Shown here: one piece after another, positions 31,825 to 40,064 of the stretch | Layout of the letters: each line of letters begins with the position of its first letter | How positions within the stretch are numbered: position 1 is the first letter of the stretch | Origin: Oscillospiraceae bacterium | Lineage (GTDB): Bacteria; Bacillota; Clostridia; UBA1212; UBA1255 | Reading direction: 5' to 3' | DNA length: 48,589 nucleotides | Assembly: GCA_015069165.1 (NCBI GenBank) | Contig: SVJD01000013.1 | Location: 1 to 48,589, forward strand | Translations under genes and position numbers: made by a program | Notes under the pieces: generated by a model | What the model saw: the letters and a program-made list of their open reading frames with translations, nothing else | Told to the model about the DNA's origin: nothing | Databases searched by the model: none

Positions 31825-33459
31825 TTGGCAAAGAAAAGTAAACACGTCGATATTGACAGGACAGAAGATATCAAAAGAATAAAACAACAATTGCAAAAAA
31901 GACCGAAAAGAAGAAAAGCTGATATGAAAAGGCTTATTATAGCGGCGAGTATTTTTGCGTTGCAGCTTGTTTTTCTTATATGGGCTTTGTACAGAATGAA
32001 TGCTTTTGTGTTGACTTCGTATATTATTTGCCAGTTGGTTGGAGCTGTTGCGGTTGTGGGTATTGTTCTGAACCGCAAAAATCCTTCTTATAAAATTGCG
32101 TGGATTGCAGTTATATTGCTTGTTCCGGTTTTGGGACTTGTTTTTTATATAATGTGGGGGCGCGGCAGTTATCCGAATAAAATAAAAAAGGTTTTGCCGG
32201 AAATTGCTCAAATGACGGTGCCGCTTTACAGACACAGCAAAGAAACGGAGAAGCAGTTGGAAAGGTTGCATCCGAATCAAGAGCGAATAATGCGTTATTT
32301 GCATAATGCGGGATTCCCCGTTTACAAAGAAACTGCCGTAACATATTTTGAAATGGGGGATACGTTTTTTCCTGCGCTTATAGAGGATATAAAAAAAGCT
32401 AAAAAATTTATATTTTTAGAATTTTATATTTTGTCCGAGGGCGATTTGTGGCAAGAAATTTACAGTGTTCTCAAACAAAAAGTAGCAGAGGGTGTAGAAA
32501 TTCGCATTTTATATGACGATTTTGGTTGTATAACGTGTTTGCCTAAGCAATTCGACAAAGACCTTAACAGCATTGGAATTAAAACAGCGTCTTTTAACAG
32601 AATAAAACCTGTGGTGAATAATTTCTATATGAATTACAGAAATCATCAGAAAATTTGCGTTATTGACGGAAATATCGGTTATACGGGCGGAGCTAACATT
32701 GCCGATGAATATATAAATAAGGTTAATGCTTTCGGGCTTTGGAAAGATACCGGTGTCAGATTGGCAGGCAGAGGTGTGTGGAGTCTTACTGTGAATTTCT
32801 TGCAAATGTGGAAATATTCTTCATACAGCAAAAAAGTTGAGACGAAAGAAGAATATACTCGTTTTGCTCCCGGTGAAACCTTCTGTGCGAAACAAGCTGA
32901 TGCAAGAGGTTTTGTACAACCATTTGCGGATGGACCTTTAAGAACGCCGGGGGATAATGAAGCAGAGGGGCTTTATATTCAAATGATAAATTCCGCAAAA
33001 AAATACATATATATTACTACTCCGTATCTTGTACCTGATAACGAAATGCTTTTGGCTTTGAGAATGGCGGCGCAAAGCGGTGTAGATGTGCGTTTGATTA
33101 CGCCGGGAATCGGAGATAAGGGGTATGTGCACCTTGTAACACAGTCGTATTATGGTTTTTTGATGTCGGCAGGAGTTAAGATTTATGAATATATTCCGGG
33201 ATTCATTCATGCCAAAAGTGTTGTTTCGGACGATGAAATGGCTGTTGTAGGTACTGTAAATATGGATTTCAGGTCGTTTTACTTGCATTTTGAAAACGGT
33301 GTATGGATGTGCGGGAACAAAGCCGTTCACGACGTAAAAAATGATTTCATAAATACATTGGAATATTGTGAGAAAATTGATTATAATAAATGGTGTAAAA
33401 GACCTTGGTACAAAAAAGCGGCACAGGGTTTTTTAAGATTGTTTGCACCTTTGTTATAA
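31825..33459 (+). CDS. cls: Cardiolipin synthase (phospholipase D type)
   Basis: A membrane enzyme of 544 residues that joins two phosphatidylglycerols into cardiolipin. It starts with TTG at 31825, seven bases after AGGAGGG. A basic N-terminal segment rich in Lys/Arg precedes two or three membrane helices (about 34-115). Two HKD motifs define the active site: NHQKICVIDGNIGYTGGANI and HAKSVVSDDEMAVVGTVNMD. Downstream, the next gene starts 20 bases later, so cls and the sigma-like membrane protein are likely expressed together. Confidence 0.93.
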   Translation: MAKKSKHVDIDRTEDIKRIKQQLQKRPKRRKADMKRLIIAASIFALQLVFLIWALYRMNAFVLTSYIICQLVGAVAVVGIVLNRKNPSYKIAWIAVILLVPVLGLVFYIMWGRGSYPNKIKKVLPEIAQMTVPLYRHSKETEKQLERLHPNQERIMRYLHNAGFPVYKETAVTYFEMGDTFFPALIEDIKKAKKFIFLEFYILSEGDLWQEIYSVLKQKVAEGVEIRILYDDFGCITCLPKQFDKDLNSIGIKTASFNRIKPVVNNFYMNYRNHQKICVIDGNIGYTGGANIADEYINKVNAFGLWKDTGVRLAGRGVWSLTVNFLQMWKYSSYSKKVETKEEYTRFAPGETFCAKQADARGFVQPFADGPLRTPGDNEAEGLYIQMINSAKKYIYITTPYLVPDNEMLLALRMAAQSGVDVRLITPGIGDKGYVHLVTQSYYGFLMSAGVKIYEYIPGFIHAKSVVSDDEMAVVGTVNMDFRSFYLHFENGVWMCGNKAVHDVKNDFINTLEYCEKIDYNKWCKRPWYKKAAQGFLRLFAPLL

Positions 33460-33479: not shown

Positions 33480-35081
33480 ATGGAATTGGTTTACTTAATT
33501 GCTAAAGAGCACGCAAATGGAGAAGTTGAGCGAAAAGCTCTTAAAGAGTTATACGAAATGTACAAGGCTCCTTTTTATTTCGTGGCTTTCGGTATGTTAC
33601 AAAATGACAAGAAAGCAAAACTTGCGGCGGCAGAAGCTTTTAAAAGAATTCAAGAATCGGCATATCGTTTTGATGAATCCCTTAATGCGCAGTATTGGTT
33701 TTTTGATGTGCTTTATACTTTGTGTGCAAATGCTTCGGGGACAATTGATTCTTCTGCGGAATGTTATATTAAAATATGCACTGAACTTACGGCGAGCGAA
33801 ATTGCTTCAATTACGGGTAAAAAGAATTCAGAAGAAAAAAAGATACTTGCAAATGAAGAAAATATTAAACGTGCAGAGGAAAATTTATTACAAGGTGCAC
33901 CGGAGTATTGGGAGTACGTAGCAGGAAACGAAAGTACGGGTTTTGAGGAAATTTCAGAAAAAGAGCGCAATAAAACAGAAAAAGAAAAAACAATACAAAA
34001 GCGTATTTTTAATTTTAAGAGAACGATTGCTATTGTGTTGGTAGTTGTGGTTGCCTGCGCGGCAGTAACTATAGGAGCAATACTTATAACCAAAAAATTC
34101 GGCAGCGATGTTGATAAAAACGCGGTACACGAGGACATCGTTTTGCAGTTTAACAACAGTATTGCGGCGGCTGAGCTTAACGGGGATGTTTATTATTGCG
34201 GCGAGGATGCCATATATAAATATGATACGGCATCTAAAAAGAGCAGTAAAATTTCCGATGATTTTGCAAAGGAAATTTTAAGTGACGGCACATATATCTA
34301 TTACAGGAATAATGCTGACGGGCACATGTACAGGATTGATGCAGACGGCAGCAACAAAACTTCTCTTTGCGATAAGCCCGGTGTGGCAATGAGTATTTAT
34401 AAGGGCGAAGTTTATTTTTCAAGCGGCGAGGGTATATATAAAATTCCTGTCAGCGGTGCAGAGTTTTCTCAAGCTGAATTGCTCCTTGACATATCGAACG
34501 ACGATAACTTGTATTGCGTGGATATGGAAGTGCACAGTTCGGGTAAAGTGTTTTTTGCGGCAGGAATAGGCAAGGGCGTTCACTGTATTACAGATTTTAA
34601 GGGGACTCCTTCGTTAGAGGGGATTTTTGCGGATGAAGTTTATACTTTGAAATCAGACGGAGACAAGTTATATTTCGATTGCAAAGAAGCTTCGGGAAAG
34701 ATACTTCTTTATTGTTTTGATATTAAAGAATATAATAATAGCGAAAACACACAGAGGGTTTTACCCACAGTGATAACTGATGCTTCAGGTAAAAACATTG
34801 AGCTTGTGACAGGTTCTTTTGAAGTGAATAACGGTAAGATATATTTCGCAGGAGAGGAAAATGGCGTTTCGGCAATATATGTGTTGGGCGAGGATAAAAA
34901 TCCGATAAAAGTTACGGAAATTCCGAAAAACGAAGCAAATGCGCGAAAAAAACTTGTAATCAGTGATTTGCATATTTTTGAGGGTAGTATTTACTATTTC
35001 TGCTCCGACGGAAAGGCCGGCGGGGACAGAGCATTTTTCGAGTATAATATGAATAGTAATACAACAAACAGAATTTTTTGA
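33480..35081 (+). CDS. ECF-sigma-like N-terminus fused via one membrane helix to an extracellular beta-propeller
   Basis: A 533-residue protein with an unusual layout. Residues about 20-84 (KELYEMYKAPFYFVAFGM..AFKRIQESAYRFD) read like region 2 of an ECF sigma factor. Residues 101-137 (ELTASEIASITG..IKRAEENLL) keep the spacing of a sigma region 4 helix-turn-helix, though degenerate. Lys/Glu-rich residues 155-180 lead to one membrane helix (182-204). Residues about 225-533 are repeating units with the pattern DVYYCGEDAIYKYD, TYIYYRNNADGHMYRID, EVYFSSGEGIYKI, typical of DUF5050-like propellers on the outer face. It could be a membrane-tethered transcription regulator or a protein that has reused a sigma fold. 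GGAG lies 13 bases before ATG. cls lies upstream and a lipid kinase gene downstream. Confidence 0.8.
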   Translation: MELVYLIAKEHANGEVERKALKELYEMYKAPFYFVAFGMLQNDKKAKLAAAEAFKRIQESAYRFDESLNAQYWFFDVLYTLCANASGTIDSSAECYIKICTELTASEIASITGKKNSEEKKILANEENIKRAEENLLQGAPEYWEYVAGNESTGFEEISEKERNKTEKEKTIQKRIFNFKRTIAIVLVVVVACAAVTIGAILITKKFGSDVDKNAVHEDIVLQFNNSIAAAELNGDVYYCGEDAIYKYDTASKKSSKISDDFAKEILSDGTYIYYRNNADGHMYRIDADGSNKTSLCDKPGVAMSIYKGEVYFSSGEGIYKIPVSGAEFSQAELLLDISNDDNLYCVDMEVHSSGKVFFAAGIGKGVHCITDFKGTPSLEGIFADEVYTLKSDGDKLYFDCKEASGKILLYCFDIKEYNNSENTQRVLPTVITDASGKNIELVTGSFEVNNGKIYFAGEENGVSAIYVLGEDKNPIKVTEIPKNEANARKKLVISDLHIFEGSIYYFCSDGKAGGDRAFFEYNMNSNTTNRIF

Positions 35082-35098: not shown

Positions 35099-36085
35099 AT
35101 GAAGGGACTATTTATTATTAATCCGTCTTCGGGGAAACAAGTGAATCAAGGAAAAGCGATTCAGGCGGCTGCAGAGTTACTTACAGACGGCGTAATAGAG
35201 GAAGCAACTTTTTTTTACACCAGAGCGAAAGATGATGCTAAAAACAGAACAATTCAAGCAAGCCGAGAAGATTATGATTTTGTTGTGGCAGTGGGAGGAG
35301 ACGGCACGGTAAACGAGGTCGTAGCAGGTCTTTATTTAAGCAAAAGCAAAATGCCGTTGGCAATTTTCCCTTCGGGAACGGTAAATGACTTTGCTACATC
35401 TGTGGGAATTACACCTACTGTTACAAATTTGTATTATCTTATAAAAGATTTTAATGTATTGCCTACTGATATAGGCTGTTTTAATGAGAAACAGTATTTT
35501 CTGAATGTTGCTGCCGGCGGTATTTTGTCGGATGTTGCGCATAGTGTCAGTGTCGAATCAAAAACTTTGTTGGGCAAAACTGCGTATATCACAAACGGAG
35601 TGAAAAAAATTGCAGAGAAAGGCTTTAAAACAACGAGATTACTTTTTGAAATTGACGGAAAAAGAGAAGAAATTGATGTGTATTTCTTTATATTTGCAAA
35701 TTCAAAGAGTGTCGGAGGTTTTTCAAAAATTTGCGCAGATGCTAAAATAAATGACGGATATATGGATTTGTGTATAGTTAAGTCATTGGATGTAATGAAT
35801 GCACTTCCGGTGTTTACAGCAGTTCTTGACGGTTCGCTCAAGAATAATAAACAAGTCGAATATCGTCAGGCAAGAGATGTAAAAATTTTTGCTACTGACG
35901 AAAGCGAAGAATTTCACCTTGATTGCGACGGTGAATATGCGGGAGAGTTACCGCTTCATGTTGAAGTTTTGCAAGCTGCCGTAAATTTGCTTTTACCTAC
36001 CGAAAGCCGTAAAACAAAACAAATCGTTGCATCGACTGATGAAGCTGAAAAATATTTAATCAGCGACTTTAATAAGTTTATTTGA
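35099..36085 (+). CDS. Diacylglycerol/lipid kinase, YegS/DagK family
   Basis: A 328-residue soluble kinase that probably phosphorylates diacylglycerol or a related lipid for phospholipid recycling. The start LFIINPSSGK and the nucleotide loop VAVGGDGTVNEVVAG (about 62-76) with IFPSGTVNDFA are family hallmarks. DCDGEYAGELPLHVEV closes the second domain. It follows the propeller protein by 17 bases in the cls direction, so three membrane-lipid-related genes lie in a row. The last 30 bases overlap the convergent metallophosphoesterase gene. Confidence 0.92.
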   Translation: MKGLFIINPSSGKQVNQGKAIQAAAELLTDGVIEEATFFYTRAKDDAKNRTIQASREDYDFVVAVGGDGTVNEVVAGLYLSKSKMPLAIFPSGTVNDFATSVGITPTVTNLYYLIKDFNVLPTDIGCFNEKQYFLNVAAGGILSDVAHSVSVESKTLLGKTAYITNGVKKIAEKGFKTTRLLFEIDGKREEIDVYFFIFANSKSVGGFSKICADAKINDGYMDLCIVKSLDVMNALPVFTAVLDGSLKNNKQVEYRQARDVKIFATDESEEFHLDCDGEYAGELPLHVEVLQAAVNLLLPTESRKTKQIVASTDEAEKYLISDFNKFI

Positions 36086-38816: not shown

Positions 38817-40064
38817 ATGAAGAAGGTAAGACTTATAGCTCTTGTATTGGTTTTGGTTATGTCGCTTTCTATTGCGATTTCATGTGATAATGAAAACTCC
38901 AAGGAAGAAGCGGCTCTTTATAAAGAGCAAGCTCAAAAAATCGAAAAGGAATACATGGACTACATAAATAAAAAATATGCGGATTACGAAGAGGTTCCGT
39001 ATGGTTTGGATATAACAAAAAAGACAAACCTCATTTCAATTTGTTATACGACTTGGTTTAACTTTGCTTTGGGTGATAAAAAAAATCCTCCTAATGTTTC
39101 TGAAATTTTGGCAGAAGGTAAAGAAACAGGAAAATATAATTGGGGCAAAGAAGGTGAGTTCCATTATTGGGCAGAGCCTGCACTCGGTTATTACAGAAGT
39201 GATGACAAAGAAGTTATTCGTACACATATGACTCAACTTGCCGAAGCAGGTGTTGATTTTATTATATTGGATCACACTTTTATGAACAGAACGAGAACTG
39301 TCGTTAGTTCGGAATGGGATGTATATGTAAAAGAACCGTGTACAGTGCTTCTCGATACAATTGTTGAAATGAGAGCTGAGGGCAAAAAGACTCCGTATGT
39401 TGTATTTTGGAGTGGTGCCGGCAGTGAAACAGATTGGGCTGTTGTACAAAAAACAAATAAAGAGTTCTATAAGCAAGAAAAGTGGAAGGATTGTTTTGTT
39501 TATTGGGAAGGAAAAATATTACAGCTTGTTACAAGAATACCTGAAATAGAATTGAGAAATGCTGATCTTACAGTACGCAGAATGTGGGGTCTTGAGCAAA
39601 ACTTGTTGCCCGAAGAGTGGAGTTACTTGCAACATGACAGCGAGCCTAACCAAAACTTGGTAGGTCTTACAGAGCAAATGTGTGTTTGTACAGCAGCTCA
39701 AAGATCATATATGTCAAAGCCTTCGGCACAAGGCAGAGAGCACGGAATATTTATGTATACTCAGTGGTATCACGCTTTCCAGCACAGACCGAAAGTTATT
39801 ACTCTTACTTGGTGGAATGAGTGGGCAGCGCAAAGGCTTCCTGACGGTAAAGGTGATTATGTATTCACAGATAATTACAACCAAGAATACAGCCGAGATT
39901 TAGAACCTATGAAGGGTGGTCATGGTGACCAGTATTACCAATGGATGAAAGAGTACATTCGTGCTTACCGTGCGTATGAACTTTGTCCTGTTCTTGTTGA
40001 AGATGGTTATGAAGATCAAGCTAAACAAACAGCTATTTTGAAATACGGAGACAAAACAGAGTAA
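38817..40064 (+). CDS. Lipoprotein with glycosidase-like (GH99/GH71-like) features
   Basis: A 415-residue lipoprotein (lipobox ending at Cys23) followed by a charged helical linker (25-58). The body starts ISICYTTWFNFALG and contains LGYYRSDDKEVIRTHMTQL, AGVDFIILDH and, near the end, KVITLTWWNEWAAQRL. A 'WNEW' motif on a late strand, an aromatic-rich first strand and the AGVDFIILD strand are what one sees in GH71/GH99-like (beta/alpha)8 barrels. I cannot identify the catalytic residues with certainty. If correct, it is a surface alpha-mannan or alpha-glucan hydrolase, or a related unassigned family. It stands alone with its own promoter and terminator. Confidence 0.7.
   Translation: MKKVRLIALVLVLVMSLSIAISCDNENSKEEAALYKEQAQKIEKEYMDYINKKYADYEEVPYGLDITKKTNLISICYTTWFNFALGDKKNPPNVSEILAEGKETGKYNWGKEGEFHYWAEPALGYYRSDDKEVIRTHMTQLAEAGVDFIILDHTFMNRTRTVVSSEWDVYVKEPCTVLLDTIVEMRAEGKKTPYVVFWSGAGSETDWAVVQKTNKEFYKQEKWKDCFVYWEGKILQLVTRIPEIELRNADLTVRRMWGLEQNLLPEEWSYLQHDSEPNQNLVGLTEQMCVCTAAQRSYMSKPSAQGREHGIFMYTQWYHAFQHRPKVITLTWWNEWAAQRLPDGKGDYVFTDNYNQEYSRDLEPMKGGHGDQYYQWMKEYIRAYRAYELCPVLVEDGYEDQAKQTAILKYGDKTE

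Follow-up and report, generated by a model that had tools for sequence, protein, structure and literature searches.

A single membrane protein of Clostridia appears to join in one chain two parts that are separate proteins in other bacteria, namely a sigma factor and a membrane sensor that presumably restrains it, and a part of a gene switch seems to have become a part of a receptor. Taken as a whole, we consider it probable that the protein arose by fusion of an operon pair and serves as a one-chain membrane receptor with a sigma-derived head. The ancestor would have been an operon pair of an ECF sigma factor and a membrane anti-sigma/sensor, and a single event in an ancestor inside this order would have merged the two reading frames. 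In the resulting one-chain receptor, 1) a DUF5050 propeller outside the cell would read an envelope or extracellular cue; 2) a single helix would span the membrane; 3) an anti-sigma-derived segment would sit between this helix and the cytosolic sigma-derived head; and 4) the head would work mainly via another protein rather than by reading promoters, most of all in the genus of the window with its eroded region 4. If this is true, it illustrates a path by which a sigma factor and its anti-sigma become one protein and later leave transcription behind; three stages are available to compare, namely separate genes, a fusion whose region 4 still looks complete, and a fusion in which it is eroded. 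It would also suggest a role as signal sensors for DUF5050 propellers, on which we found few papers, none of them on signalling by title.

Layout of the protein

The gene lies in a 48,589-nucleotide stretch of DNA, hereafter the window, as a single open frame (33480-35081, ATG start, AAGGAG upstream) encoding 533 amino acids. Roles of genes were assigned throughout from sequence alone, and the metagenome assemblies possibly contain errors. The following features were identified:

33480..35081, + strand: whole gene, with a sigma-derived head, an anti-sigma-like segment, a membrane helix and a DUF5050 propeller (one open frame; architecture in 30/31 genomes of the order)
33537..33737, + strand: predicted ECF sigma region 2, residues 20-86, with the core-binding Gln lost and E52, W73 and N84 kept (profile and NCBIfam matches, residue comparison)
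33759..33845, + strand: putative eroded region 4, residues 94-122 (alignment with the complete-looking region 4 of other genera)
33849..33953, + strand: residues 124-158, sharing homology with N-terminal cytosolic stretches of anti-sigma-like membrane proteins (hhalign)
34023..34091, + strand: predicted single membrane helix, about residues 182-204 (hydropathy and a helix in the AlphaFold model)
34158..35078, + strand: predicted DUF5050 beta-propeller, residues 227-533 (Pfam DUF5050; model matches propellers)

Residues 227-401 match Pfam DUF5050 (E 1.3e-13, 51.2 bits against a gathering cut-off of 27), which is the sole model above cut-off in the Pfam scan of the protein. The AlphaFold model of the full-length protein (mean pLDDT 79.9) comprises a helical head and a propeller at residues 224-533, and a fold search with the whole model gave a list filled by propellers, the best of them at Z 22-24. 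The propeller of DUF5050-like repeats proposed in an initial annotation of this DNA is thus borne out, as is its single helix at residues 182-204, where hydropathy has its one peak (residues 183-203). With its N-terminus presumably inside the cell, the protein would expose the propeller as an extracellular sensor. Within the helix, residues 193-195 (window 34056-34064) read Cys-Ala-Ala and resemble the XAA motif, which in the membrane helices of RsgI serves for ClpXP recognition (PMC12203970). At the level of DNA, repeats within the gene showed nothing to suggest a regulatory element, a promoter scan returned 29 sites where 21.7 (sd 3.4) were expected, and terminator counts were at chance level.

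Sigma descent and origin by fusion

Profile comparison indicates that the head is derived from an ECF sigma factor. Alone, it has faint yet consistent matches to ECF sigma factors (NCBIfam SigW over residues 17-83, E 6e-7), and a profile (A2) of 29 homologous heads, searched against the PDB, finds two ECF sigma factors of solved structure, SigK (E 1e-12) and SigW (E 7e-12), in agreement with the early reading of residues 20-84 as ECF region 2. The window's head by itself matches no Pfam sigma model, as might be said in favour of a chance resemblance, and Sigma70_r2 is matched by 21/29 heads at E<=1. The probability of such a coincidence is nonetheless negligible, being refuted by the profile matches to solved ECF structures and by the two-gene relatives with canonical ECFs described below. 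Across the order, conservation in this protein is highest in region 2, so that the N-terminus is neither unrelated to sigma factors nor lacking in conservation; outside the window's genus, its mean pairwise identity is 48%, versus 30% for the propeller. Residues 94-122 align with the complete-looking region-4 helix-turn-helix of other genera. A degenerate region 4, first placed at residues 101-137, therefore exists in eroded form, but that range overruns into the anti-sigma-like segment at 124-158.

Another family of Clostridia (f57) has the same parts in the same order as the window protein, and differs in that they are encoded by two separate genes, the ECF being canonical and complete. In its four intact loci (L137-L140), the ECF is directly followed by a frame of 374-401 aa with a short cytosolic anti-sigma-like segment, a membrane helix, and DUF5050; of the proteins scanned, both ECFs pass the Sigma70_r2 and r4 models of Pfam and all three partners match DUF5050. 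In a fifth locus (G205; L135:802-1891), the pair that is intact in these four relatives is broken by frame shifts. The profile of the fused family spans both products, aligning to an ECF product at positions 4-165 and to one partner, that in L140, from 166 (two other partners align only from 236 or 269 on), which argues for a fusion between a sigma factor and its presumed anti-sigma/sensor. The fused segment that follows region 4 also matches the N-termini of the partners (hhalign 95%, score 40.3; best of 60 shuffles 10.9).

Outside the order, most of the closest canonical ECFs precede a membrane protein whose cytosolic N-terminus resembles 'I..A.E..PD.LD.I'. One such partner, belonging to a genus relative, was scanned and has the anti-sigma central domain of Pfam, RsgI_M. 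These RsgI-type proteins, encoded after related ECFs, have, ahead of their membrane helix, a cytosolic N-terminal stretch that is similar; they differ from the window protein in being a separate gene and in having an RsgI_M domain, for which the window protein gave no Pfam match, in place of the DUF5050 propeller. The gene position and the RsgI_M of this related partner suggest that the partner segment acts as an anti-sigma. Homology to the two-gene pairs points to a sigma/anti-sigma fusion, and comparison at this level shows, as far as sequences allow, where the protein came from and how it is built. The initial annotation had proposed a membrane-tethered sigma-derived regulator, which agrees with the sigma descent, the helix and the propeller; it had missed the fusion with an anti-sigma/sensor. 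Two genus relatives (L133, L134) encode a canonical ECF with a membrane partner.

The fused architecture is present in 30 of the 31 genomes of the order examined and in 15/15 of those with a completeness of 90% or more and a contamination of no more than 5%; the named relatives are metagenome-assembled Clostridia, many of them ruminant-derived. Among 391 genomes of the class, fused-length frames were confined to this order, the other matches being frames of 150-224 aa, and when 398 genomes sampled from the phylum were searched at E 1e-22, the window's genome was the only one with a fused copy. When the heads were placed in a tree together with canonical ECFs, a branch with support 98/98, found in 99% of bootstrap trees, set all fused heads apart, a support at which a single origin of the fused architecture is strongly suggested. 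The sole genome of the order lacking the gene (G016) encodes a secreted DUF5050 protein, which is a different, non-orthologous protein (L100:7765-9381) with repeated dockerin-like motifs recognised by eye.

Our literature search, confined largely to openly available papers, found no description of the combination of sigma head, helix, and DUF5050. Among known systems, ECF52 proteins (SCO4117 of Streptomyces coelicolor) also combine an ECF sigma, a regulatory segment, a membrane region, and an extracytoplasmic binding domain in one chain (PMC5826349), and the membrane helix after the sigma domain that characterises them is found in the window protein. ECF52 has been reported from Actinobacteria only; its sigma domain was shown to affect transcription, and it has a zinc-finger segment and a proline-rich region with a carbohydrate-binding module (PMC5826349). 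In contrast, the window protein has a DUF5050 propeller and a degenerate sigma part, and occurs in Clostridia. It gave no model match to the zinc finger, has no cysteine between residues 101 and 192, and gave no Pfam match to the carbohydrate-binding module. ECF57, likened here by description only, joins an ECF sigma to C-terminal WD40-like repeats (PMC8999054).

Contact residues and the role of the head

The initial annotation had named conserved contacts with the -35 and -10 elements as a sign of support; these residues are largely absent, as are those for core contact. We compared 29 fused heads with 17 canonical rows, drawn from the two-gene and RsgI-type ECFs. The core-binding Gln of region 2.2 occurs in 0/29 fused heads versus 15/17 canonical rows (the other two have His), and the D-x-x-Q-E/D motif of this region is not found, the acidic residue right after the Gln position being kept in the fused heads and the one three before it being kept outside the window's genus and lost within. 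The basic run that follows region 2.4 is gone from most fused heads, the net charge over the 12 residues that start at position 84 shifting, on average, from +2.4/+2.8 to -0.4 (+0.8 in the genus). The recognition helix of region 4 carries a Glu in 24/24 heads outside the genus and in 4/5 within, at a place where relatives have Lys/Arg or Tyr. Region 4 looks complete in the other genera of the order; it is shortened in all five members of the window's genus, where an intact helix-turn-helix is not found. This suggests that the head is sigma-derived but probably no working sigma factor, at least in the window's genus, and a sigma-derived signalling domain is the more likely role. The loss of these residues further points to a head that would act through protein contact instead of reading promoters as a sigma. 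The conservation of region 2 despite the lost contacts suggests, short of proof, a kept function with altered contacts. One kept acidic residue of region 2 aligns with what we take to be E407 of sigma70, and together with the good conservation of this region it leaves room for some contact with RNA polymerase.

These residues weigh on a reading in which the protein is a latent sigma held at the membrane, whose head, upon a signal, would be freed by a first cut and then by RseP, and would bind RNA polymerase. The layout is that of ECF52 and of IutY (ECF243) from Pseudomonas putida, which is likewise a sigma fused to a membrane-bound anti-sigma, and the helix-turn-helix of region 4 is kept outside the window's genus. 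Such proteolytic release, by Prc and RseP, has been shown for IutY, which differs in being an active iron-starvation sigma (PMC8999054), and proposed for ECF52 proteins (PMC5826349). The RseP family, intramembrane proteases that act in anti-sigma signalling, was found in 13/14 genomes searched, including the window's own, so that a release by proteolysis could take place here too, but RseP is widespread and has other substrates. Since all fused heads are without the Gln of region 2.2, the basic patch is lost, the recognition helix has its Glu, and region 4 is eroded in the window's genus, we regard this latent sigma as unlikely. In Clostridium thermocellum, RsgI undergoes cleavage by RseP, after which ClpXP degrades it (PMC12203970), a sequence of events that would apply here by analogy only.

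Alternatively, the head could stay at the membrane as a sigma mimic which, on signal, would bind a free anti-sigma and thereby free another sigma factor. The sigma-like domain of PhyR offers a parallel, since it is ECF-derived and keeps the ECF structure with degenerate promoter and polymerase contacts (PMC8103513), and contacts are lost here as well; PhyR differs in having a receiver domain, for which the window protein gave no Pfam match, and in binding NepR, whereas the window protein has a membrane helix and a propeller. Other ECF-length sigma genes are present in the window's own genome. However, 12/18 genomes searched, the window's own among them, yielded no RsgI_M protein, which is the type of partner that goes with the closest RsgI-type ECFs, and no recognised anti-sigma gene adjoins the window locus, which makes the mimic improbable. 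We also rejected the idea that the protein generally serves to titrate RsgI-type anti-sigma proteins, since these 12/18 genomes had no RsgI_M match.

The head evidently evolved fast in the window's genus, which has a branch length of 2.03 in the head tree. This long branch and the eroded region 4 would suit a head that is a decaying relic in this genus, with only the propeller mattering. Yet region 2 is as conserved as the propeller within the genus (mean identity 0.54 for both), and E52, W73, and the open frame are kept; we judge a relic very unlikely.

The conserved lipid kinase

The gene sits between two genes of lipid metabolism on the same strand, as the initial annotation had it:

31825..33459, + strand: predicted cardiolipin synthase (upstream neighbour in the window, 20-nt gap; 17/30 loci)
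35099..36085, + strand: predicted YegS/DgkB-type lipid kinase (downstream neighbour in the window, 17-nt gap; next recognised gene in 29/30 loci)

The 30 loci compared are the window, four of its genus, sixteen relatives, and nine more. The exception to the position of the kinase is L038, and in two other loci (L160, L162) the gap before it exceeds 400 nt. Upstream, nine of the 30 loci have a metallophosphatase with uvrC. Neither a fused nor an ECF-like frame was present in the flanks examined around homologues of the lipid kinase from outside the order, or around the one in G016. The conserved adjacency of the kinase suggests a role near lipid or envelope metabolism and lends weight to the envelope sensing proposed at the outset, although adjacency alone is no proof of a shared pathway. 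A wider claim, that throughout the order the fusion made the sigma factor into the cytosolic signalling domain of a receptor, off promoters and perhaps acting on the adjacent lipid kinase, is tentative and on balance doubtful. Because the gene is near universal in the order and adjoins the lipid kinase, its function is testable. Further downstream, the window encodes a GH99-like protein (38817-40064; Pfam GH99 E 2.7e-5, below cut-off), which is also found nearby in three of the four genus relatives examined.
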